IMG/VR virus record: IMGVR_UViG_3300007735_000480 | Coordinates: 1 to 21,908 of that record | Length of the DNA: 21,908 bases | From: a virus | Strand: one strand, 5' to 3' | Part shown: piece by piece, positions 123-17,187 of the stretch | Layout: each line of letters begins with the position of its first letter | Numbering within the stretch: the first letter of the stretch is position 1 | Made by a program: the position numbers and the translations under genes | The notes under the pieces: model-generated | What the model saw: the letters and a program-made list of their open reading frames with translations, nothing else | The model's database searches: none | Told to the model about the DNA's origin: nothing

Positions 123-311
123 ATGCTCCTCCTCCTGATCGTCGGCGCATCCGTCCCGACCCCGACCGGAGGGCACCCCGGCCGACCCGATCGGAACGTC
201 GCCCGACGGCCGGTGACGCCGGAGCCGGGTGCGACCATTGACGAGGACGACGAAAGCGTGCTCGTCGTCCTTCTGCTCGGCGTGGCCGAGGACCAGGAGG
301 GCCCGTGGTGA
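123..311 (+). CDS. Small hypothetical protein between the upstream gene and the protease
   Basis: This 62-residue ORF starts with ATG directly after the TAG of the upstream gene, and its TGA overlaps the GTG start of the protease (GTGA, 308-311). That coupling is the main evidence that it is translated. The first residues are hydrophobic (LLLLIVGASV), the middle is Pro/Arg-rich, and the C-terminus has an acidic run followed by another hydrophobic stretch (VLVVLLLGV). I do not recognise a family. No ribosome binding site is obvious before the ATG, so it would depend on reinitiation. It could be a small head or connector accessory protein, or spurious. Confidence 0.4.
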   Translation: MLLLLIVGASVPTPTGGHPGRPDRNVARRPVTPEPGATIDEDDESVLVVLLLGVAEDQEGPW

Positions 312-991
312 ACCGTGCGGTGAAGGCGACGCTCCTCGACGACGACGCCTTCCGCCTCCTCGCCTTCCCCTTCGGCGGCCCCATCCCCTCCCCTCGCAGC
401 CCGCGCGGCGTCGACCTCGACGGCGAGTGGTTCAGCGAGCGCACCGACATCAAGCCCGCCTGGCTCAAGGCGCGCCCGGTCGACTGGCACCACGGCGCCG
501 ACGCGACGCTCGGCCGCGAGGTGATCGGCAAGGCAGTCGACCCGGTGATGGACGACGAGGGATGGTGGGTGACCGTGTGGCTCGACCACGGCCACCGACG
601 CCTGGAGCTCATCAAGCGGCTCGCCGAGAAGGGCGCCGCGCTCTTCGGCTCGTCGGAATCGGTCGCGGGGCTCGTGAAGAAGGACAAGGCGACCGGCGAG
701 ATCCTCGAATGGCCCTACTGGCGGCAGACGTTGAGCACGTCGCCCCAGAACACCTTGTCGGTCATGCGCCCCCTCAAGGCTTCCGTGGCGCACATCGACC
801 CCGATTACATCACCCCCGCCTTCTGGGCGGATCTCGGCCCCCGGCTCGCGGACCTCGCGGCGGACCTGCGCACGACCTCGGCGGTGACCCCGCCCGGCAA
901 GGGCGCGGCATACGACGACGGGCTACTCGAAGCGGTGGCGCGGTTCGACCGAGCGACGGCTAACGCCCTCGCGAAGGTCCGCGGGGCGTAA
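308..991 (+). CDS. HK97-type prohead protease
   Basis: This is the capsid maturation protease that cleaves the scaffold region of the capsid protein inside the prohead. The frame opens with GTG GTG at 305 and 308. AGGAGG at 295-300 is better spaced for 308, which also overlaps the previous stop, giving 227 residues. The family pattern is present: a His pair in VDWHHG (near residue 61), a GW-V-V-L strand after MDDEG, then the helix leading to LFGSSESVAGLV (about 112-122) with candidate nucleophile Ser, and a closing WPYWRQTLSTSPQN strand that matches the usual 'E-S-L-T-P' segment. It lies directly before the capsid gene, as expected. The exact catalytic Ser among the three in GSSES is not certain. 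Confidence 0.85.
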   Translation: MNRAVKATLLDDDAFRLLAFPFGGPIPSPRSPRGVDLDGEWFSERTDIKPAWLKARPVDWHHGADATLGREVIGKAVDPVMDDEGWWVTVWLDHGHRRLELIKRLAEKGAALFGSSESVAGLVKKDKATGEILEWPYWRQTLSTSPQNTLSVMRPLKASVAHIDPDYITPAFWADLGPRLADLAADLRTTSAVTPPGKGAAYDDGLLEAVARFDRATANALAKVRGA

Positions 992-1038: not shown

Positions 1039-2420
1039 ATGGGAACGCAGTTCACCCAGGAGGTCGTGACCGGCGGCATCACGCCGACCACGGGCCTCAT
1101 GGACGCCATCGGCAAGGCGGCCACGCGCATCGAGCAGATCGCGACCGAGATGGCCGACGCCAAGGAGCAGGACACCGCCCGCTGGCAGGCGCTCAACGAG
1201 GAGCGCAAGTCGCAGGCCGTCGAGCTCTCGAAGCTCCAGGAGCAGTTCGCCAAGGCGAAGATGGAGGAGGAGACCGCGGACGCGGTGGCCTCCGTCGCCG
1301 AGATGAAGGCGCAGCTCGCGCAGATGCGCTCCCCCTCGAAGGCCGGCGCCATCGGTGCCGTCCGCGCGGGTGGCCGCTACGAGCCGGGCACGTTCCTCGG
1401 CGCGATCATGGACGCCCGCTCGGGCGACCCGGACGCCCGCCTCGCCGCGAAGGCGACGCTCGACCGGCTCGCCTCGGCGTACGGCCGTGACGAGGGCAAG
1501 GCGACGCTCGGTGCGACCGACGCGACCGGCGGCTGGATTCTGCCGAACGCGATCGTCGACCAGCTCATCATCCCCGGCACCGTCGACAACATCTACCGCC
1601 GCCTTATGACGGTGGTCAACAACGTCGCGACGTTCCAGATCGACATGCCCTACCGCGACGCTGCCCGCGCCGCGGCGGTCATCGCACCGTGGGGCAACAC
1701 GATCGAGAACAAGGACCTCGCGTACCAGGCTTACACCGCCACGGTGTACACCCTCGCGAGGGTCTACGACCTCGGCGCCCAGTTCGTCCAGTTCAGCCGC
1801 GGCGCGGCCGAGCAGGACGTGATGACGGAGCTCGCCGCCGCGTTCGCACAGGGCGAGTCGTACTACATCCGCGAGGGCTCCGGCTCCTCGCAGCCGTACG
1901 GCTACACCGGCGCGCTCACGAACGGCCCCGGCTCGTTCAAGACGACGTTCACCCCGTCGAGCACGACGCTCGCCGGGTCGATCGCGACCTCGATCGCCGA
2001 CGCGGCCGGGGCCCTCGCGGGCCGCGGCGTGAAGCCGACCGCAGCGGTCATGTCGGCCTCGTCCTACTGGACGATGGTCAGCCAGGGTACCGACAACGCG
2101 GGCTTCTTCTTCAACCCGGCCGGTGGCCCGACGGGCATCGCCCCCGGGACGCTCATGTCGCCGTTCGGCATCCCGGTGTACGCCGACCCCGCGGCGGACC
2201 TCAGGGGACCGCGGCGGTCACCGACAACCTCGTCGTCGCCGACTGGAGCAAGTTCAAGCTCTACTTCGGCTCGACGTACCGGGTCGACGTCTCGGACGTG
2301 GCCGGCACCCGCTGGGACACGCTCACCGTCGGCTTCCGGGGGACGGAGCAGATGGCGTTCGACGCACGGCCGGCGGTCTACGCGGGCCACGCGCAGATCA
2401 TCACCGACATCGTCCCGTGA
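1039..2420 (+). CDS. Major capsid protein (HK97 fold, fused scaffold), frame broken near 2202
   Basis: This is the main shell protein. The ATG at 1039 follows GAAAGGG at suitable spacing. Residues about 20-105 are a charged, Gln/Glu/Lys-rich coiled coil typical of the scaffolding (delta) domain removed by the protease. From about residue 115 comes the HK97-like core, with GGWILPNAIVDQL, a long beta-rich E-loop region and SQPYGYTGAL. The frame is coherent up to VYADPAADL (about 2202). The expected ending (TAAVTDNLVVADWSKFKLYF to DIVP) then lies one frame back and stops at 2420. The uncorrected frame runs to 2532 with a Ser/Arg-rich antisense-like tail. Restoring one base gives 460 residues. 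CTCAGGGG could be a truncated CTCCAGGGG (Leu-Gln-Gly). The break may be an assembly error or a real mutation. Confidence 0.88.
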
Positions 2421-2528: not shown

Positions 2529-3215
2529 ATGACCGAAGAGCGCGAGTTCCGGACGCCGCATGGGAAGCCCGTGCGGCTTCTGTGCCGTCCGGGCACGAAC
2601 GACCAGATGATGGCCTACTCCTGCCTCGACGAGGATGAGTACCGCCTCCGCGACATCCCAGCGAGCACGCTCACGCTCGCGGCCGACGTCGGCGCCCACA
2701 TCGGGATGGTCGCGATCGGCCTCGCGCTCGACCACCCCGGCGCCCGCGTCCTCGCGGTCGAGCCGCTCCCCGCGAACATCGCGCTCCTCGAGGAGAACGC
2801 CCACCGGAACGGCGTCGGCGACCGCGTCACCGTCATCTGGGGCGCGGCCTCGCGCACGAAGGGGAACGTCGACATCGCCTGGTCGTTCGCGGGCGACGAG
2901 GCCGCCGACATGCACCGCTTCGTCGGCAACCAGCCGATGGCCGCGGGCACGAAGCAGGAGACGCTCACCGTCCCGGGCGTCACGCTCGCGAGCCTCGTCA
3001 CGACGGGCGCGCTCGACCTCCTCGTCACCGACTGCGAGGGCGGCGAGTACGACCTGCTCGCGGGGAAGACCGCGAAGGCGCGCGTGCGGGAGATCCGCGG
3101 CGAGTACCACGGCGGCTTCACCCGCCTCGAGGGGCTCCTCGCCGACACGCACGACGTCGAGGCGATCGGGGGCACGGCCTCCTTCGGGGGGTTCATCGCG
3201 CGGGCGCGCACGTGA
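2529..3215 (+). CDS. FkbM-family SAM-dependent methyltransferase
   Basis: This 228-residue protein probably adds a methyl group to a hydroxyl, often of a sugar in FkbM family members. The SAM-binding glycine loop is AADVGAHIG (51-59), the acidic residue after strand 2 is in AVEPLPANI (E78), and the family's late motif is VTDCEGGEYDLL (166-177). The ATG at 2529 has GAGGGG just upstream. It is followed through a GTGA overlap by three glycosyltransferases, which suggests it methylates a sugar they transfer. It lies between the capsid and connector genes, so the virion is a likely target, though this is inference. Methylation of a protein side chain is an alternative. Confidence 0.85.
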   Translation: MTEEREFRTPHGKPVRLLCRPGTNDQMMAYSCLDEDEYRLRDIPASTLTLAADVGAHIGMVAIGLALDHPGARVLAVEPLPANIALLEENAHRNGVGDRVTVIWGAASRTKGNVDIAWSFAGDEAADMHRFVGNQPMAAGTKQETLTVPGVTLASLVTTGALDLLVTDCEGGEYDLLAGKTAKARVREIRGEYHGGFTRLEGLLADTHDVEAIGGTASFGGFIARART

Positions 3216-4255
3216 GCCGTGTCGTCCTCCTCCTCGCCCACTCCATCGAGGAGTACATGCAGGTCCGGCTCCTGCACGAGCTCGGCCACGAGGTCCTGTC
3301 GATCGGCGCGTACCTCGACCCCGCGCACCCCGGCGACGACAAGCGCCCGGCGCTCCCCGAGGTCCTCTTCCACGCCGACCTCGCCGCGGTCGTCTCCGCC
3401 GCGCCCTGCTCGCCCGACATGCCCGACGACCACCTGTGGGGCGCGAAGGACCGCCTCCCCGACGCGGTCATCGACTGGGGCGACATCTTCATCGTCCACC
3501 ACTGCGAGTGGCGCTGGCTCGCGGGCGGCAACTTCGACCGCCTCAAGGCGGCGGGCAAGCGGGTCATCTGGCGCACCGTCGGCCAGTCGACCCACGAGAA
3601 CGAGCTGCGGATGCAGGCGCTCCGCGCGCAGGGCCTCGAGATCGTCCGCTACTCCCCGAAGGAGCGGAGCATCCCCTACTACGCGGGCGAGGACCGGCTC
3701 ATCCGCTTCTGGATGGACCCCGACGAGTGGACCGGCTGGACGGGCAACGACGTCCGCGTCGGCAACGTGACCCAGGACATGCGCGGCCGGGCGGCGTGGA
3801 CGGGCTGGGACTGGTACGCCGAGTTCGCCCGCTACGCCCCCTGCTATCCGGCCGGACCGAAGTCGGAGCAGTGGGGCGGCGCCGGCAGCCTCGACTACGA
3901 CGGCTTGAAGGCGTACCTCCGCTCGATGCGCGCGTACGTCTACACCGGCACGTTCCCCGCCTCGTACACGCTCGGGCTCATCGAGGCCGCGATGACCGGC
4001 GTCCCGATCGTCGCCGCGGGCCCCGCCCGCTGGGGCCGCGACTTCTCCGGCCTCCCGTACGGCTCGGCGCTGTACGAGGCGCACGAGCTCGTCCCGCTCT
4101 GGTCGGACGACCCGTACCAGGCCGCCCAGATGGCGAACCGCCTTCTCCACGACCCCGACTGGGCGAAGGCGATCTCGACGCGGCAGCAGGAGGTGGCCGA
4201 GGCGCTGTTCGGCAAGCCCGTCATCGCCGCCCAGTGGAAGGAGTTCCTCGGATGA
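3212..4255 (+). CDS. GT-B-type glycosyltransferase (first of three)
   Basis: This 347-residue protein starts with GTG overlapping the methyltransferase stop (GTGA, 3212-3215). The N-terminal half has a Rossmann-like opening (RVVLLLAHSIEEYMQVRLLHELGH) and the C-terminal half has the donor-binding element YVYTGTFPASYTLGLIEAAMTGVPIVAAG (242-270), the place where GT4-like enzymes carry E-X7-E. The second Glu (E259) is present, but the first is replaced by a small residue. It is cytosolic, with no signal peptide or membrane segment. Acceptor and sugar are unknown. By position it should act with the two downstream transferases and the methyltransferase on one glycan. Confidence 0.72.
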   Translation: MSRVVLLLAHSIEEYMQVRLLHELGHEVLSIGAYLDPAHPGDDKRPALPEVLFHADLAAVVSAAPCSPDMPDDHLWGAKDRLPDAVIDWGDIFIVHHCEWRWLAGGNFDRLKAAGKRVIWRTVGQSTHENELRMQALRAQGLEIVRYSPKERSIPYYAGEDRLIRFWMDPDEWTGWTGNDVRVGNVTQDMRGRAAWTGWDWYAEFARYAPCYPAGPKSEQWGGAGSLDYDGLKAYLRSMRAYVYTGTFPASYTLGLIEAAMTGVPIVAAGPARWGRDFSGLPYGSALYEAHELVPLWSDDPYQAAQMANRLLHDPDWAKAISTRQQEVAEALFGKPVIAAQWKEFLG

Positions 4256-5343
4256 GGGTCCTCGTCGACTTCCATCACCACGCGCTCGCCGAGAGCCTCC
4301 TGCGCCTCTTCGACGACCGCTACGGCGTCGACGTCTACTTCCCCGCGGGGATGGGCTGGTACGAGCGGGGCTACTGGAACTTCGAGCGGGCGTGGCACGG
4401 CGACGCGGTCGCGCGCCAGTACCTCGAGGGGATCTGGGCCGACGGCGAGTGGGGCGAGCACGGCGTCTTCCGGCGCGACCCGCGCCACCCCGGCCGCTGG
4501 CACAACGGCGTCACCGTCGAGCGGGCGCTCGACATGGTGTGGGACCTCGTCATCTCGACGCTCCCCCACAACGACGAGGGGATGCACCGCTTCGCGACGG
4601 TCGACCTCCCGGCGAACCAGCGCGCCCGCTTCGGCCTGCAGATCGGGAACGTGATGCAGGACAGCCGCTACGACCTCGCGGAGTTCGCGCTCTCCTCGTC
4701 GACGCTCCCCGGCCACACGACGCCCGACTCCTGGGCGAAGGTCATCGACCACCGCGGCGTGCCGACCGTCATCTACCACCAGGAGTTTGACGCGCAGGGC
4801 GTCTTTCGCTTCGACCCCGACCCGGCTGCGGGCTCCCGCGAGGTCGCCTCCTGGGTGAACTGCTTCCCCGAGACGGCGCCCTACCCGGGCTTCCTCGACT
4901 TCGCCCGCCGGCACGCCGACGACTTCGACTTCAAGGTGTACGGCGCGTACGGCTCGGCCGCCGCGGACGAGCTCGCCGCGGGCGACGTGTCGCTCGTCAC
5001 CGACGTCGCGGACCGGATGAGCGAGGCGCGCGTCGGCTTCCACATGAAGGCGTGGAGCGACGGCTTCGGCCACGTCATCCACAACTGGGCCGCGCTCGGC
5101 CGCCCGATCGTGTGGGTCGCCGACTACTACCGCGACAAGCTCGCCGCGCCGCTCTTCGTCGAGGGCGTCAACGCGTGGGACATCGGGCGCCACACCGAGG
5201 CCGAGCTCGTCGCGCTCATGCGCCGCCTCCGCGACGACGACGAGTTCTGGCTCAACGCCGCGACCGCGAGCCGCGACCGCTTCGACTCCCTCGTCTCGTT
5301 CGACGCGGAGGCGCAGGCGATCGCCGGGATGCTCGGCCTGTGA
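4252..5343 (+). CDS. Divergent GT-B-like glycosyltransferase (second of three)
   Basis: The start is the ATG at 4252, overlapping the previous stop as ATGA. The same frame is open far upstream (from 2635), but that part is antisense-like Ser/Arg-rich sequence lying under the two preceding genes. The 363-residue protein begins MRVLVDFHHHALAESLLRLF and has a central strand set (PTVIYHQEF, FDFKVYGAYGS). Its C-terminal segment, VGFHMKAWSDGFGHVIHNWAALGRPIVWVADY (261-292), resembles the donor-site helix of GT-B enzymes, with His-Asn in place of the usual Glu pair. Family assignment is therefore weaker than for its neighbours. Its C-terminal stop overlaps the next GTG. Confidence 0.6.
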   Translation: MRVLVDFHHHALAESLLRLFDDRYGVDVYFPAGMGWYERGYWNFERAWHGDAVARQYLEGIWADGEWGEHGVFRRDPRHPGRWHNGVTVERALDMVWDLVISTLPHNDEGMHRFATVDLPANQRARFGLQIGNVMQDSRYDLAEFALSSSTLPGHTTPDSWAKVIDHRGVPTVIYHQEFDAQGVFRFDPDPAAGSREVASWVNCFPETAPYPGFLDFARRHADDFDFKVYGAYGSAAADELAAGDVSLVTDVADRMSEARVGFHMKAWSDGFGHVIHNWAALGRPIVWVADYYRDKLAAPLFVEGVNAWDIGRHTEAELVALMRRLRDDDEFWLNAATASRDRFDSLVSFDAEAQAIAGMLGL

Positions 5344-6629
5344 GGGTCCTCTTCGTCGGCGACCTCGCCGCGACCGGCTTCGGCTCGGTGACGACCGACC
5401 TCGGGCGGGCGCTCCTCGACCGCGGGCTCGACGTCCGGTTCCTCTCGCAGAACGAGATCGGCAGTCTCCCCGAGCCCTTCGCCTCGCGCGCGGTCGACCT
5501 CGCGTTCTACACGTACCAGGCGGGCCAGCCGGGCGTGACCGGCGTCCGCTCGCTCATCGGCGACATCATCGACGGCGTCCCCGGCCACCTCCTCGTGAAC
5601 GGCGAGGCCTTCGGCGACTGGCGCCCCGAGGCGGTCGTCGTCCTCTCGGACTTCGTCGCCGCGCGCCTCCTGTGGACCCGCTTCGCCGACGCGTTCGCGA
5701 AGGTCCCCGTCTACCACTACGTCCCGGTCGAGGGCGTCGACCTCCCGCCGCTGTGGGCCGACCTGTGGCGCCACATGCGGCCGGTCGCGATGAGCCGCTT
5801 CGGGCAGGAGCAGATCGAGGCGCTCACCGGCGTCCGCCCGCCGCTCGCCTACCACGGCGTCGACCCCGACGCGTTCTGGCCGGTGAGCCCGAGCCGCCCC
5901 ATCGACGTGCCCCGCGACGACGGCCCCGACAGCCCGACGGTCCGCATCACCTCGAAGGAAGGCGCGAAGCGGTTCTTCGGCTTCGACCCGCGCTGGACGA
6001 TCATCGGCCGGACCGACCGGAACATGCCGCGCAAGCGGTACGCCTCGCTCCTCCGCGCGGTCGGCCCCGTCCTCGAGGAGCGCGAGGACGCCCGCCTCCT
6101 CATCCACGCAAGCGCGTTCGACCAGGGCGGCTTCCTCCCCGACAGCGTCTCGAAGATGTCGCCCGCCGCGGGCTCGCGGGTCATCATCACCGACCGCCCC
6201 GGCCTGCCGCGCTCCGTCCTCAACGCGCTCTACAACGCGATGGATCTCTACGTGACGACGTCCGCCGAGGGCTTCGGCCTGTGCATCGCGGAGGCGCTTG
6301 CGTGCGGCGTCCCCGCGGTCGGGATGGACTACTCCGCGGTCCCCGAGGTCATCGGCCCCGCGGGGATGACGGTCGCGGTCGACCGGACGTACGACAACGA
6401 GTACGACCACGCGTGGGCATGGCCGGACGAGACGATGTTCCGCGTGGCCGTCCGGCACCTCGTCGAGCATCCCGCGAAGCGGCGGGCGCTCGGCGCACTC
6501 GGGCCGGGCCACGTCGAGCGCCACTTCCGCTGGTCGTCGGCGGCCGAGGCGTTCGAGGCGGTCCTCCGGGGGTCGTACAATGAGCAGGACAGGCCGTCAG
6601 GGACGGCGCCGGAGCCGCTTGCCGCGTGA
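5340..6629 (+). CDS. GT4-family glycosyltransferase (third of three)
   Basis: This 429-residue protein starts at GTG 5340, overlapping the previous stop (GTGA). Open sequence further upstream in this frame lies under the previous gene and is not coding-like. It shows the best GT4 signature of the three: an N-terminal MRVLFVGDLAATGFGSVT loop, an interdomain FDPRWTIIGRTDRNMPRKRY segment (basic nucleotide-binding region), and a perfect E-X7-E motif in AEGFGLCIAEALACGVPAV (E310, E318), followed by the SAVPEVIG loop. GT4 enzymes use nucleotide sugars with retention of configuration. The C-terminal tail SGTAPEPLAA looks flexible. Its TGA overlaps the GTG of the connector gene, placing the modification block in the structural operon. 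Confidence 0.88.
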   Translation: MRVLFVGDLAATGFGSVTTDLGRALLDRGLDVRFLSQNEIGSLPEPFASRAVDLAFYTYQAGQPGVTGVRSLIGDIIDGVPGHLLVNGEAFGDWRPEAVVVLSDFVAARLLWTRFADAFAKVPVYHYVPVEGVDLPPLWADLWRHMRPVAMSRFGQEQIEALTGVRPPLAYHGVDPDAFWPVSPSRPIDVPRDDGPDSPTVRITSKEGAKRFFGFDPRWTIIGRTDRNMPRKRYASLLRAVGPVLEEREDARLLIHASAFDQGGFLPDSVSKMSPAAGSRVIITDRPGLPRSVLNALYNAMDLYVTTSAEGFGLCIAEALACGVPAVGMDYSAVPEVIGPAGMTVAVDRTYDNEYDHAWAWPDETMFRVAVRHLVEHPAKRRALGALGPGHVERHFRWSSAAEAFEAVLRGSYNEQDRPSGTAPEPLAA

Positions 6630-7270
6630 ACCTGTGGATCTCCGCAGCCGACGTCCGAACGTACGCGAACCTCGACGGCACCGCCGGCCGCTATAGCGAC
6701 GCCGCGCTCGGCTCGAACATCTACGCCGCCCAGCAGCTCATCGAGCAGCGGACGGGGCGCGTGTTCGACGCGCAGACGACGAGCCGGACGTTCACGACCG
6801 AGTACCGCGCGCAGATCGCGATCCCCGACGTCCGATCGGTCTCCTCGGTCACGTTCGTTGGCACCGCGCTCACCGCAAACGAGACGTACTGGCTCCTGCC
6901 CGACCCGAAGTTCCCGACCGTCTACACGGCGATCCAGTTCCGCGTCTACGGCCGCAACCGGCTCAACTGGTACCTCGGCAACCCGAACTGGTACGACCGC
7001 GGGCTCGACATGCGCGTCCCCTACTCGACCTCCTCGATGCCCAACGACCTCGTCATCACCGGCGACTGGGGCTGGTCACCGCCGCCCTGGGACATCCTCC
7101 ACGCGACGAAGGTCCTCGCGGCATGGCTCACGAAGCGCGCCGACGGCGTCCTCGCGAACGCGGTGCAGGCGCCCGACGGGACGGTCTTCGACTACTCCCA
7201 GATGCCTCCCGAGGTGAACGCCGTCATCGCGACGTACCGGGTCGGCGAGCAGGCCGTGAGCATCTTCTGA
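6626..7270 (+). CDS. Head-tail connector (gp6-like adaptor)
   Basis: This 214-residue protein starts with GTG at 6626 (GTGA overlap). It opens with a typical adaptor helix pair (ISAADVRTYANLDG, YAAQQLIEQRTGRVF), then a beta-rich middle describing a surface strand (IAIPDVRSVSSVTFVG), and ends with helices including ILHATKVLAAWLTKRADG. That layout and its place between capsid and tail genes match the HK97 gp6/SPP1 gp15-like adaptor that docks on the portal. In simpler phages this gene directly follows the capsid gene. Here about 4.2 kb of modification genes intervene. Confidence 0.68.
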   Translation: MNLWISAADVRTYANLDGTAGRYSDAALGSNIYAAQQLIEQRTGRVFDAQTTSRTFTTEYRAQIAIPDVRSVSSVTFVGTALTANETYWLLPDPKFPTVYTAIQFRVYGRNRLNWYLGNPNWYDRGLDMRVPYSTSSMPNDLVITGDWGWSPPPWDILHATKVLAAWLTKRADGVLANAVQAPDGTVFDYSQMPPEVNAVIATYRVGEQAVSIF

Positions 7271-11912: not shown

Positions 11913-13505
11913 GTGCCGCTCACCTGGACCATCGGCGGCGTCGACAAGAGCGACTCCGTCCGCTACCAGTCGTGGTCGCTCACCGAGTGCGCCCAGCGCG
12001 GGCAGGTCGGCGCGGCGACGCTCACCATCGACGACACGCTCGGCACGTACCTCCCGCCCGCCCAGAAGACGATCACGGTCGTCGAGTCGAGCGCGACCCC
12101 GACTCGCCTGTTCACCGGCTACGTCGCGGAGCGGACGACCTCGACGTTCCAGATGCCGCCCGGCCAGCGGCAGTGGGTCGTGACGGTCGAGGACCTCAAC
12201 GTCCTCTTCGACGACCGCATCATCACGAACGCGATGAACGGCAACCGGCCGGCAGAGACCGACCGCGACCGCGTCCGCTGGCTCCTCGGGCTCACCGAGG
12301 GCGCGGCCTGCACCGTCCTATCGAGCCCCGGCATCACGTCGGGCGTCCTTCACGGCGCGGGCGACGACGTCGACATGGACAAGACCGACTACCGCGGTAA
12401 GACCGCCCGCGACGTCCTCGAGGACTGCGCGCAGAAGTCGGGCGCGAACTACTTCCTCTACGACATCGGCAGCGGCATCAAGCTCTTCTACGACGTCGGC
12501 ACGAACGCGACGTTCACCTCGACCGCCTACCTATCCGACGCCGCGGCGGATGTCGACTCGACGACCGTCTTTCCGATCTCCAACCCCGAGTATTCCTACG
12601 ACCCGTCGCGCGTCTACTCGCGCCTCCGCATCCGCTACAAGGCGGGCAGCACGACGCAGGCGCTCGACACGACCGGCTCAAACTTCCGCGTCCGCGAGAC
12701 CTACAAGCGGTGGATGCGGGCTAAGACCGAGACGAAGGCGACCGCCCAGGCGAACAAGTGGCTCGCGCAGGCGGCGACCGAGACCCGCTCGCTCAAGTGC
12801 TCGACGATCATGCCCGCGGCCTACGTCAACCTCATCCGGGCGGGGATGCTCATCGGCATCAAACTGACCCGCCACGGTTTTACGGGCTACGAGAACTGGC
12901 GTGTCACGACCCGCACCATCACGCAGCTCAACGACGTCACCTACCGCGTCGACCTCGTCCTCAAGGACAAGGTGAAGCCGACCCGCTTCTTCGACGGCCC
13001 GGACGTCTCGGTCGACGAGGAGTTCTCGACCGCGACCGACGCCTCGACGCCCGACTCGCCAGGCGCGCTCCTCGACGCAAACGGCCTCACCATCAACGGC
13101 GGCTCGATCTCGGTGACCAACGGCTCCGCCGAGGTCATCATCGACGGGACGAGCGAATTTTTCTCCATCGTCGCGAAGGGCACCATCCAGCTCCCCGCGT
13201 CGACCGGCAAGGGCCTCACGAAGAAGACGTTGTCGGTGACGACCGGCCTGGACACCGACCCGCTGGTCCTCTTCGCGGCCCGCGTCCCCTCGCGTGACGG
13301 CACCGGCGACTGGTCGCAGCCGCTACCGGAGTTGAGCATCTCCGCGGCCGGCACGATCCTCCGCGCCTTGCAGGGCCGCGCGCGCTACGAGTCGGGCGCG
13401 GGTGCCGCCGCGAAGACGCAGGTGCAGGTGACGCGGTTTAGCAGCTCGCCGCCGGACGGCGCCCAGACCATCCGCTACTGGATCTTGCAGAAGAGGGTCA
13501 TCTAG
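11913..13505 (+). CDS. Tail hub/baseplate-like minor tail protein
   Basis: GTG at 11913 directly follows the tape measure TAG, giving 530 residues. The N-terminal half is beta-rich and resembles the gp27/hub type of minor tail protein (GQVGAATLTIDDTLGTYLPP, FTGYVAERTT, DYRGKTARDVLEDCAQKSGANYFLYD), the last segment being a common element of phage hub proteins. Later strands (IRAGMLIGIKLTRHGFTGYENWRVTTRTI) look like the hub's second barrel. The C-terminal third is Thr/Ser-rich beta repeats. It would form the tail tip behind the tape measure. The exact Dit versus Tal role cannot be fixed from sequence. Confidence 0.65.
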   Translation: MPLTWTIGGVDKSDSVRYQSWSLTECAQRGQVGAATLTIDDTLGTYLPPAQKTITVVESSATPTRLFTGYVAERTTSTFQMPPGQRQWVVTVEDLNVLFDDRIITNAMNGNRPAETDRDRVRWLLGLTEGAACTVLSSPGITSGVLHGAGDDVDMDKTDYRGKTARDVLEDCAQKSGANYFLYDIGSGIKLFYDVGTNATFTSTAYLSDAAADVDSTTVFPISNPEYSYDPSRVYSRLRIRYKAGSTTQALDTTGSNFRVRETYKRWMRAKTETKATAQANKWLAQAATETRSLKCSTIMPAAYVNLIRAGMLIGIKLTRHGFTGYENWRVTTRTITQLNDVTYRVDLVLKDKVKPTRFFDGPDVSVDEEFSTATDASTPDSPGALLDANGLTINGGSISVTNGSAEVIIDGTSEFFSIVAKGTIQLPASTGKGLTKKTLSVTTGLDTDPLVLFAARVPSRDGTGDWSQPLPELSISAAGTILRALQGRARYESGAGAAAKTQVQVTRFSSSPPDGAQTIRYWILQKRVI

Positions 13506-14725
13506 TGCCCGACATCGACGACCCGTTCCTCGAAGAGGTCGAGCCGACCGCGCAGCAAGTCGGCATCGACGTGCCCGGCTCGCGCTCCGGCTTTACCGAC
13601 TTCATCAACTTCGGCATCTTCAACGGGAACTTCCGACTCGGCCCGCCGAACCCCGCGGCGAACGTCGACGTCGTCGGCGCCGCGGGCAGTAACTTCGTCC
13701 CCGGCTGGCGCTTCGTCCAGTCGAGCAACACGAACATCACCGGCTCGATGGTCCGCAACGCCGCGTACCCGTCCGGCTCGAACTTCCGCTTCACGTTCGC
13801 GGCGGGATCGGCGAACGACGAGGCCTACATCGAGCAGCTCATCGACATGGGGGGATCGGTCAACCAGGACATCGGCGCAATCATCCGCGGCTACGGCTCC
13901 TCGTCGCAGAACAGGGCGGGCCTCGCCGTCTCGACGCAGTACCTCACGACCGACGGGACGATCGCCGGGATGCCGCCGGAGCGGACGACGCTCGACTCTG
14001 GCGGCGTGGGAGGGCGCGCCCCGCGCTATCTCTTCCACCCCGCGGAGGTCGACAACCCGCCCGGCGCGGCGCGCTACCTGCGGCTGCGCGTCGTCGCGAA
14101 CCGGCAGTCCGTCTTGGCCGGCACCGCGTTCACCATCGACGTGCCGGAGATCCGGCGCGAGCGGGTCACGTCGAACGTGCGCCTCGTGGACCGCCAGCTA
14201 TATGGCGGCGCAGGCGTGGTGAGCGTCGGCGACTTCTATATGACCGGCTCCAACCTCCTGTGGCAGCCCGCCTCGACGACCGCCGGAAGCACGACGACGC
14301 AGCGCCTCCTCAACTACCAACTCGTCCCGCTTCCGTTCAGCCTCGTCAACATCCCCGCGAACGCGGTCACCGAGCTCCAGCTCTGGGGCGACACGGCGCT
14401 CGCGCTCGCGACGCCGCGCATCGGTATCCCGTGGGCGTCCGCGATCGTCGGCGCGTCATACCGCCTGTCGGCCATCCCGACGGCCGGTGGCGCGTCCGCG
14501 CTTGCCATCCGCGTGCAGGTCGGCGGCTCGACCGTATGGACCCCGTTCACCATCGCCGGGTCCGGCGGGGCGCTGTCGAACGAAGCGAGCCAGGTCGTCA
14601 CGGCCGACGAGCTCGCAAGCGGGCAACAGATCGGCGTCGTCGTGGACACCTCGGCAACCTATGCGCCGACGACCGCCGACCTAGCGGTCGTCGTGTGGGT
14701 CGCCGTGAAATACGACGGGAACTAG
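13505..14725 (+). CDS. Putative tail-tip/receptor-binding protein with CBM-like domain
   Basis: This 406-residue protein starts at GTG 13505 (TAGTG overlap). After a short acidic N-terminus, residues about 35-215 look like a jelly-roll carbohydrate-binding module (FGIFNGNFRLG, NFVPGWRFVQSSNTNITGSM, then alternating strands to FTIDVPEIRRERV). The second half (about 230-406) is another beta-sandwich (VSVGDFYMTGSNLLWQP, NIPANAVTELQLWGDTALA, QIGVVVDTSATYAPTTADLAVVVW). The two beta domains and the place after the hub gene suggest a host-surface or self-glycan binding protein. There is no enzymatic motif. This is inference from fold-like appearance, not a firm family match. Confidence 0.5.
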   Translation: MPDIDDPFLEEVEPTAQQVGIDVPGSRSGFTDFINFGIFNGNFRLGPPNPAANVDVVGAAGSNFVPGWRFVQSSNTNITGSMVRNAAYPSGSNFRFTFAAGSANDEAYIEQLIDMGGSVNQDIGAIIRGYGSSSQNRAGLAVSTQYLTTDGTIAGMPPERTTLDSGGVGGRAPRYLFHPAEVDNPPGAARYLRLRVVANRQSVLAGTAFTIDVPEIRRERVTSNVRLVDRQLYGGAGVVSVGDFYMTGSNLLWQPASTTAGSTTTQRLLNYQLVPLPFSLVNIPANAVTELQLWGDTALALATPRIGIPWASAIVGASYRLSAIPTAGGASALAIRVQVGGSTVWTPFTIAGSGGALSNEASQVVTADELASGQQIGVVVDTSATYAPTTADLAVVVWVAVKYDGN

Positions 14726-15820: not shown

Positions 15821-15901
15821 GGCGGGATGGTACGCCGGGTGGGCGCGGGGATGCACGTCATAACTTCGGCACGCCCGATGCTCACCTCGAGTGGTGCTTG
15901 T

Positions 15902-15954
15902 CATACGCACCGTGCGCAGTTCATGTATTGACAGCCCTACGCATGAAGCGTATG
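15902..15954. promoter_or_regulatory. Mirrored operator half-sites between repressor and Cro-like genes
   Basis: CATACGC at 15902-15908 is the exact inverse of GCGTATG at 15948-15954. Each overlaps a possible -10: TATGGT rightward and, on the other strand, TATGAC (15905-15900). A tighter inverted repeat TACGC-ATGAA-GCGTA occupies 15938-15952, and CGCA-CCG-TGCG lies at 15906-15916. These are plausible repressor/Cro operators. The leftward promoter lacks a good -35, so only the rightward one is well supported. Confidence 0.5.
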
Positions 15955-15956
15955 GT
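15928..15956 (+). promoter_or_regulatory. Sigma70-type promoter TTGACA-N17-TATGGT
   Basis: A perfect -35 TTGACA (15928-15933) is followed by exactly 17 bases and TATGGT (15951-15956, four of six consensus bases). The expected start of transcription is about six to seven bases on, which coincides with the ATG at 15963. It would drive the Cro-like gene and probably the downstream recombination genes. Confidence 0.75.
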
Positions 15957-15962
15957 CTGCAC

Positions 15963-16157
15963 ATGACCGGACTGGACCTACGGCTCGCTCGCACGGCACG
16001 GCGCATCCACTCGAAGGATCTCGCCGCGGCGATGGGCGTCTCCGCGTCGCGCGTCTCTCGCATCGAGAACGCCGACATCCTCCGTCCGGCCACGGTGGCG
16101 CGGTATCTCGCCGCGCTCGAGCTGCTGACCCGGCCGGGCTCCCGGCGGGCAGCGTAG
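15963..16157 (+). CDS. Cro-like HTH regulator, probably leaderless
   Basis: This 64-residue protein is almost entirely a helix-turn-helix domain: LARTARRIHSKDLAAAMGVSASRVSRIENADILRPATVARYLAALEL. The start at 15963 is chosen because it begins right at the HTH and falls at the predicted +1 of the promoter. An earlier in-frame ATG at 15891 would lie upstream of the promoter. No Shine-Dalgarno sequence precedes it, which fits leaderless translation, common in actinobacteria. Divergent to the repressor, it is the natural candidate for the lytic antirepressing Cro. An excision control role is possible. Confidence 0.75.
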   Translation: MTGLDLRLARTARRIHSKDLAAAMGVSASRVSRIENADILRPATVARYLAALELLTRPGSRRAA

Positions 16158-16326: not shown

Positions 16327-17187
16327 ATGACACCCGTCCGAGACCCCATCGGCGAGCGTGCCGCACAGGCCGCGCACCTCGCCCGCCGCAACCCCCGCGA
16401 GCGGCTCTCCAAGTCGTGGATGATCGGGGCCGACCTGTGCGGCTACCGCGCGTGGTACGACCTGTGGTTCCCGACGCCCTTCCTCATGACCGAGAAGGTC
16501 GCGTTCGGCAAGGCGGTCGACGCGGGCGTCGAGCTCATCGTCGAAGCGCTCCGCTCCGGCCAGCCGGTCGACCTCGTCCGCGCGATGTGGGCCGCCGAGG
16601 CGACGACCGAGGACCACGCGGTCGCGGTCGACCTCGACGCGGTCCGCACCGCGCTCTCGCGGTTCGAGCCGGAGGTCGCCACCCAGTTCGACTGGCGCTA
16701 CTGCGAGACCCAGCCGCACCTCTCGCTCGAGATCCCCGGCATCGGCCCGGTCGACGGTCACCCCGACATCGTCCTCGCCGACAGCACGATCCTCGACGTG
16801 AAGACCGGCGCCCGGGCGAAGTCGCCCGAGGCGGCGGCGACCGCGTACCTGGAGCTCGGCTTCTACGCGATCGCCGTCGAGGCGATGACCGGCGAGCGCG
16901 TCCCCCGCGTCGGCTACGTCACGTGGGTCCGCTCGAAGGCGCCCTACTGGCAGGTCGTCACCGCGCCGGTCACCGACCGGATGCGCGCCATCACCCGCAA
17001 CCTCGCCGCCGCGAAGGCGCGCGCCATCGACGCGGACGGCCTCCTCAACGAGGGCGTTGCCGAGCCGCGCAACCACACGCTCACGAACGGTCCGAAGTTC
17101 GACGGCCTGTGCACTGACTGCTCGCACGCCCCGTGGAACGACGGCCGCTGCGAGATCACCGAGGAGGTCCTCCATGCAGCCGCGTGA
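16327..17187 (+). CDS. PD-(D/E)XK exonuclease, RecB/Cas4-type with Fe-S cysteines
   Basis: This 286-residue protein starts at ATG 16327 behind AGGAGGAAG. The nuclease core is GHPDIVLADSTILDVKTG, giving D147 and D157-x-K159, with the YLELGFYAIA helix after it (Q/Y-motif region). Four cysteines are placed as in Cas4, AddB and related nucleases: C38 near the N-terminus and C262-x2-C265-x9-C275 near the C-terminus, predicting a [4Fe-4S] clamp. The family cleaves DNA ends. Being followed, with a 14-base overlap, by a probable annealing protein, it likely acts like the exonuclease of a lambda Exo-Bet-type pair in phage recombination. Confidence 0.82.
   Translation: MTPVRDPIGERAAQAAHLARRNPRERLSKSWMIGADLCGYRAWYDLWFPTPFLMTEKVAFGKAVDAGVELIVEALRSGQPVDLVRAMWAAEATTEDHAVAVDLDAVRTALSRFEPEVATQFDWRYCETQPHLSLEIPGIGPVDGHPDIVLADSTILDVKTGARAKSPEAAATAYLELGFYAIAVEAMTGERVPRVGYVTWVRSKAPYWQVVTAPVTDRMRAITRNLAAAKARAIDADGLLNEGVAEPRNHTLTNGPKFDGLCTDCSHAPWNDGRCEITEEVLHAAA

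Follow-up and report, generated by a model that had tools for sequence, protein, structure and literature searches.

The window analyzed here, by which we mean the whole 21,908-nt stretch of DNA, is a 21.9-kb IMG/VR virus record from an uncultured bacterial virus. Its head genes include a methyltransferase gene (MT) and three glycosyltransferase (GT) genes (GT1, GT2 and GT3), arranged as follows.

305..991, + strand: probable prohead protease or head gene; no Pfam match; directly 5′ of the capsid gene
1039..2420, + strand: major capsid protein (MCP), HK97 type (PF05065, 1e-6; phrog_10, 3e-10), with a frame change at ~2190–2210
2529..3215, + strand: MT, FkbM-family SAM methyltransferase, 228 aa (PF05050, TIGR01444)
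3212..4255, + strand: GT1, unnamed family with a predicted GT-B fold and the motif A-X7-E, 347 aa (AlphaFold model with GT4 matches in the PDB)
4252..5343, + strand: GT2, unnamed family with a predicted GT-B fold and the motif D-X7-N, 363 aa (AlphaFold model with GT-B matches in the PDB)
5340..6629, + strand: GT3, predicted canonical GT4 enzyme, constant last gene of the locus, 429 aa (PF13692, 4e-14)
6626..7270, + strand: head-tail adaptor (connector; phrog_442, 2e-16), with homologues after GT3 in all relatives that contain the region

Every junction from MT through GT1, GT2 and GT3 to the adaptor gene is a 4-base stop/start overlap. The open reading frames, the overlaps and the folds described below bear out what a sequence-only reading of this DNA had proposed, namely an unbroken, overlapping block of one methyltransferase and three GT-B enzymes between capsid and adaptor. 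Homologues of the 305..991 product in loci L004 and L015 are 53–80% identical and occupy the equivalent position immediately 5′ of the capsid gene. The C-terminal part of the capsid protein runs on in another frame in the window; since the capsid gene of relatives L014 and L004 is a single ORF of ~460 aa, the frame change probably reflects an error of sequencing or assembly, or else a broken gene in this copy. Among isolated phages, the capsid protein has just one weak, partial relative (28% coverage), and none was found for the tail protein encoded at 11913–13505. The record is probably incomplete, as neither a terminase nor a portal gene was recognized in the window. A tyrosine integrase gene near the right end (PF00589, 3e-23) indicates that the phage is probably temperate, and genes for an HTH regulator (15891–16154) and a PD-(D/E)XK nuclease (16327–17184) lie downstream of the tail genes.

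MT belongs to the FkbM family, with scores well separated from the model cut-offs (PF05050, 4e-12, 46.9 bits vs 22.7; TIGR01444 of NCBIfam, 8e-20, 71.7 bits vs 37.7). It keeps the SAM-binding motif D-x-G-x3-G, and D53-G55-G59, E78 and D168-E170 are conserved among 70 relatives. By profile (PF13692, 4e-14; PimB′, 2e-14) and by its E-X7-E motif with upstream R/K residues, GT3 classifies as a GT-B enzyme of CAZy family GT4; residues E310-X7-E318, R224, R231 and K232 are invariant in 62 of 62 relatives. GT3 is thus the one transferase of the block for which a perfect E-X7-E had been claimed. It directly precedes the adaptor gene in all 48 loci in which a family-matched gene does so.

The other two transferases proved harder to place. 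GT1 has no significant match in Pfam, PHROGs or NCBIfam, and GT2 has none above cut-off in the same three collections (best, PF13524 at E = 0.025). AlphaFold models built from the family alignments reached a pLDDT of 89 for GT1 and 85.5 for GT2. Foldseek searches against the PDB matched both models to GT-B/GT4 enzymes with a probability of 1.00 (best E = 5e-11 and TM ~0.6–0.7 for GT1; best E = 2e-10 and TM ~0.5–0.6 for GT2), with BshA, PimA, HepE, tll1591, TarM and EarP among the matches. In profile comparisons, the C-terminal halves of GT1, GT2 and GT3 align in register. The models thus place GT1 and GT2 in the GT-B fold, with two Rossmann-like domains, and agree with the fold originally suggested for both proteins.

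Their motifs depart from the canonical form in a consistent manner. In GT1, the second Glu is present in 117 of 117 relatives, and the first position is Ala in 115 of them (98%). In GT2, the first position is Asp in 104 and Glu in 4 of 108 relatives (D270, 96%), the second is unconserved, and K266, four residues upstream of D270, is invariant. Neither protein shows the intact E-X7-E or the significant GT4 profile match by which CAZy GT4 membership is judged. In GT4 enzymes, the two Glu of E-X7-E contact the donor sugar and the nucleotide ribose; some of these contacts are presumably lost in GT1 and GT2. Because the motif is altered, we regard both proteins as predicted catalysts at most. Since the altered motifs are fixed in ~110 relatives each, GT1 and GT2 represent conserved subfamilies rather than decayed genes, and the earlier suggestion that the two motif-divergent transferases may form new subfamilies holds for two conserved, unnamed families. 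Relatives of the block are 30–83% identical and keep the gene order, and dN/dS values of ~0.24–0.42, estimated from codon-position divergence against the closest relative, indicate purifying selection on all four genes; the block is thus no chance arrangement. The possibility that GT1 and GT2 are decayed, or are not GT-B proteins, was ruled out by the structure models, purifying selection and motif conservation.

GT1 and GT2 form an obligate pair: among viral loci with enough flanking sequence, 67 of 68 GT1-bearing loci also have GT2, and 80 of 80 GT2-bearing loci also have GT1. A short, diverged GT2 paralogue lies between MT and GT1 in L015 (12468–13313, with D-X7-E), L036 and L045. GT1 relatives with no GT2 nearby were seen in bacterial genome records (L019 9923, L022 802, L023 9878 and L024 2035), which derive from the chromosome of Methylophilaceae LSUCC0401 and from Planctomycetes MAGs.

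Scanning viral contigs, together with genome contigs, with GT1 and GT2 profiles yielded 130 non-redundant loci; four loci from GenBank phages and fragments of the window are counted among them. Three genomic contexts predominate. In context A, the order is HK97 capsid-[MT-GT1-GT2-GT3]-adaptor, found, apart from the window, on 65 non-redundant contigs, many of them cut at one end. When the window is counted in, 35 of the 37 loci flanked on both sides have all four genes, and the four-gene block thus recurs between capsid and adaptor in other phages. In context B (13 loci), GT1 and GT2 follow the gene for a scaffold-P22-like coat protein (PF11651) in the order coat-[GT4-GT4-GT1-methyltransferase-GT-A-x-GT2]; this P22-type coat is unrelated to the HK97-type capsid. 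At least two context B loci carry a Thr-rich collagen-like gene 3′ of the cassette (L137, 14998–17208; L134, 16308–18821), whose products, with ~26–27% Thr in Gly-X-Y repeats, are candidate O-glycan acceptors. In context C (18 non-redundant loci), the order is DNA polymerase III alpha-[GT4-GT1-methyltransferase-GT2]-RecA, with a C5-cytosine methylase gene downstream in 12 of 18. Examples are L138 (5511–13726) and L166 (5527–17100), where the cassette possibly serves DNA glycosylation; L166 and most of its relatives have the downstream C5-cytosine DNA methylase. Searching 50,697 GenBank phage records by tblastn uncovered no relative of GT1 (two members) or GT2 (one member), and a tblastn search of plasmids found no GT1 relative.

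As this first set of loci had been found through GT1 and GT2 themselves, the final scan of viral contigs started from the capsid protein. The capsid profile was made from capsids of cassette-bearing contigs, which reduces the bias without removing it. The best 80 matches gave 74 non-redundant capsid relatives, 44 of them with both capsid and adaptor genes; more distant capsids, beyond these 80 matches, could still be without the locus. The adaptor, used as a single-sequence query against viral contigs, returned no match, whereas the profile-based capsid query did succeed. Among the best 80 capsid matches, a GT3-type transferase lies between capsid and adaptor in 44 of 44 two-flank relatives, GT1 and GT2 also occupy the slot in 29 of the 44, and an empty slot, with capsid adjoining adaptor, was found in 0 of 44. 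The sequence-only reading had pictured the block as inserted into a normally adjacent capsid/connector pair; with glycosyltransferases in every two-flank slot of this set, "inserted" is misleading.

The 15 relatives in this set of best 80 matches that have no GT1 and GT2 contain different glycan genes in the slot, GT-A transferases included. In the variable part of their slots, Glycos_transf_2 accounts for 22 of 57 scanned ORFs, accompanied in smaller numbers by methyltransferases, NTP/CTP transferases (cytidylyltransferase), FdtA, RmlD/epimerase and KAS III, as well as acyl-, hexapeptide and GNAT acetyltransferases. A KAS III-like gene lies in the slot of L224 (15016–15951), and FdtA, Asn synthase and epimerase genes occur elsewhere in the slots of L189–L234; related phages possibly carry unusual acylated or amino sugars. 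Mapping the presence of GT1 and GT2 on MCP, GT3 and adaptor trees required at least 5, 5 and 6 changes, respectively, on quick maximum likelihood trees in which some branches are weak. With the slot occupied in all 44 two-flank relatives and GT1/GT2 changing along the trees, the head operon of these phages keeps a glycan locus in place while swapping what it contains, GT3 being the constant last gene.

We propose, with a probability of roughly two in three, that the block attaches an O-methylated glycan to a protein of the virion, the capsid protein being the likeliest. Phage-encoded glycosyltransferases linked to structural genes, one mark of a virion glycosylation system, are present here. 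The enzyme classes and the coupled block make glycan assembly, the job assigned earlier, likely, and the position next to the capsid gene in two unrelated capsid lineages does the same for the virion as target. In this proposal, the block would be one allele of a glycan locus native to the head operon of the lineage. GT3 would probably form the first or anchoring linkage to the virion protein, for which the major capsid protein is the likeliest candidate; GT1 and GT2 would probably extend the glycan with sugars taken from host nucleotide sugars; and MT, the methyltransferase of FkbM type, would O-methylate one added sugar, capping or decorating the glycan. These steps would take place in the cytoplasm while the late genes are expressed, ahead of assembly or in its course. 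Related phages have other transferases, sugar-nucleotide enzymes and enzymes of acetyl or acyl groups in exchange for the GT1/GT2/MT part and, with this part exchanged, related particles would carry different glycans. We infer the protein nature of the acceptor, its identity with the capsid protein, the order of action and the identity of the sugars.

Whether the glycan is placed on the head or elsewhere is addressed by gene neighborhood. Capsid adjacency in two capsid types, together with the glycosyltransferases in the corresponding slot of two isolated phages (phiPsal1 and Mae-JY09, see below), argues for a head-linked role, as judged from gene order; the context C cassette, flanked by DNA polymerase III alpha and RecA, does not fit a capsid-only role. 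A sub-case that overlaps with virion glycosylation, and that we consider rather unlikely, is that the target is a tail or minor virion protein (tail tube, fiber or collagen-like) instead of the capsid. Some mycobacteriophages have a glycosylated tail tube (PMC12363180), and L134 and L137 have a Thr-rich collagen-like gene after GT2. However, collagen-like genes occur in only three capsid-context loci, where they lie upstream of the capsid gene, and the constant neighbors of the locus are the capsid and adaptor genes. A CBM-like tail-tip protein had also been named as a possible acceptor, but the product of 13505–14725 has no carbohydrate-binding match in Pfam.

The main rival to virion glycosylation, improbable in our estimate, is that the enzymes glycosylate modified bases in the phage DNA, a hypermodification that blocks restriction, and that the head-operon position is incidental; the sequence-only reading had not raised this possibility. 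This reading is kept alive by the GT1-methyltransferase-GT2 set in the replication module of another phage group, where the 18 context C loci have the order GT4-GT1-MT-GT2 and 12 have the C5-cytosine DNA methylase downstream. T4-type DNA glucosyltransferases have GT-B folds, a fold shared with the enzymes modeled here, and a PDB neighbor of the GT1 model is the phage glycosyltransferase HY126 (9iqz). Nonetheless, a partly controlled search for base-activating enzymes turned up little: the thymidylate synthase/hydroxymethylase family occurs in just 1 of 50 records, and the C5 methylase in 8 of 50, five of these in the replication-context group, and in only 3 of 22 capsid-context contigs (G001–G022). 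Tet/JBP dioxygenases were found in 0 of 50 records, which counts weakly given that the positive control was silent too. The exchangeable neighbors, moreover, are enzymes of surface-glycan type (FdtA, KAS III, GNAT). Alteration of the host cell envelope, through receptor masking, superinfection exclusion or lysogenic conversion, we hold to be distinctly improbable, even though the integrase (PF00589, 3e-23) marks the phage as probably temperate and several of the best structural matches, e.g., PimA and PimB′, are lipid or cell-envelope glycosyltransferases. A hydropathy scan detected no transmembrane (TM) segment in MT, GT1, GT2 or GT3 and, in the variable part of the slot, at most one marginal TM window in each of 6 of 57 proteins and no multi-pass membrane protein; this lack of membrane proteins argues against envelope conversion. 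The locus likewise contains no gtr-type combination of membrane flippase and polyprenyl-phosphate transferase. Conversion genes usually stand on their own and are active in the lysogen, unlike this block, which lies in the late head operon and is coupled to the adaptor gene in every relative examined.

To our knowledge, only a few phages have been shown to glycosylate their virions. In the uncultured lineage studied here, the head operon seems to include sugar-building genes throughout, as an obligate component, and their allele-like exchange within the slot resembles bacterial surface-polysaccharide loci. A wider reading, which we offer tentatively and at somewhat less than even odds, is that of a serotype-like virion-glycan locus, in which a constant anchoring GT3 is combined with a swapped set of sugar-adding and sugar-modifying enzymes to give antigenically or adhesively different particles, and in which GT1 and GT2 would found two new, always-paired families recruited independently beside two unrelated capsid types. 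If this is true, the particles of closely related phages would differ in their sugar coat, which would matter for adsorption, for how hosts and grazers recognize the particles and for particle stability. The analysis also yields two conserved glycosyltransferase families that are unnamed and whose catalytic motifs are altered, and the exchanged loci provide natural variants with which the sugar added by each gene could be worked out.

Among known systems, the mycobacteriophages Che8, Corndog and Myrna encode the transferases that glycosylate their virion proteins; capsid and tail tube are the acceptors, and this glycosylation lowers antibody binding (PMC12363180, citing Freeman 2023). Like the window, Che8 has three consecutive annotated glycosyltransferase genes (gp108–110) with four-base overlaps; unlike it, this trio lies at the far right genome end, outside the head operon. 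Homology between GT3 and Che8 gp108 was considered and rejected, as profile comparison found no relation between the two. Pontimonas phage phiPsal1 (MG835450) has glycosyltransferases in the corresponding slot, with a capsid gene, a group I GT, a methyltransferase, a GT2-family glycosyltransferase and a HK97 gp6-type neck gene, and its group I GT is 26% identical to GT3 of the window over 70%. However, its glycosyltransferases are annotated as group I and GT2-family (GT-A type) enzymes, its methyltransferase is on the opposite strand, and tblastn found no relative of the window's GT1. The phage is reported as no longer available and is not discussed further in PMC6106888. Microcystis phage Mae-JY09 (PP395641) similarly has an RfaG-type GT related to the GT3 family, plus further genes, between capsid and head-tail adaptor; its other slot genes, in contrast, are annotated as hypothetical, and tblastn found no GT1 relative. 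The solved GT-B enzymes of family GT4 (BshA, PimA/PimB′, HepE and tll1591) resemble the GT1 and GT2 models in fold, and GT3 also by sequence profile, but identity to them is ~8–16%, and of the two acidic residues of E-X7-E, the first is missing in GT1 and the second in GT2. In our literature search, no paper described a glycan locus as a constant feature of the capsid-adaptor interval. Virion glycosylation itself is thus known from mycobacteriophages, whereas the capsid-adaptor glycan locus and the two unnamed transferase families appear to be new.
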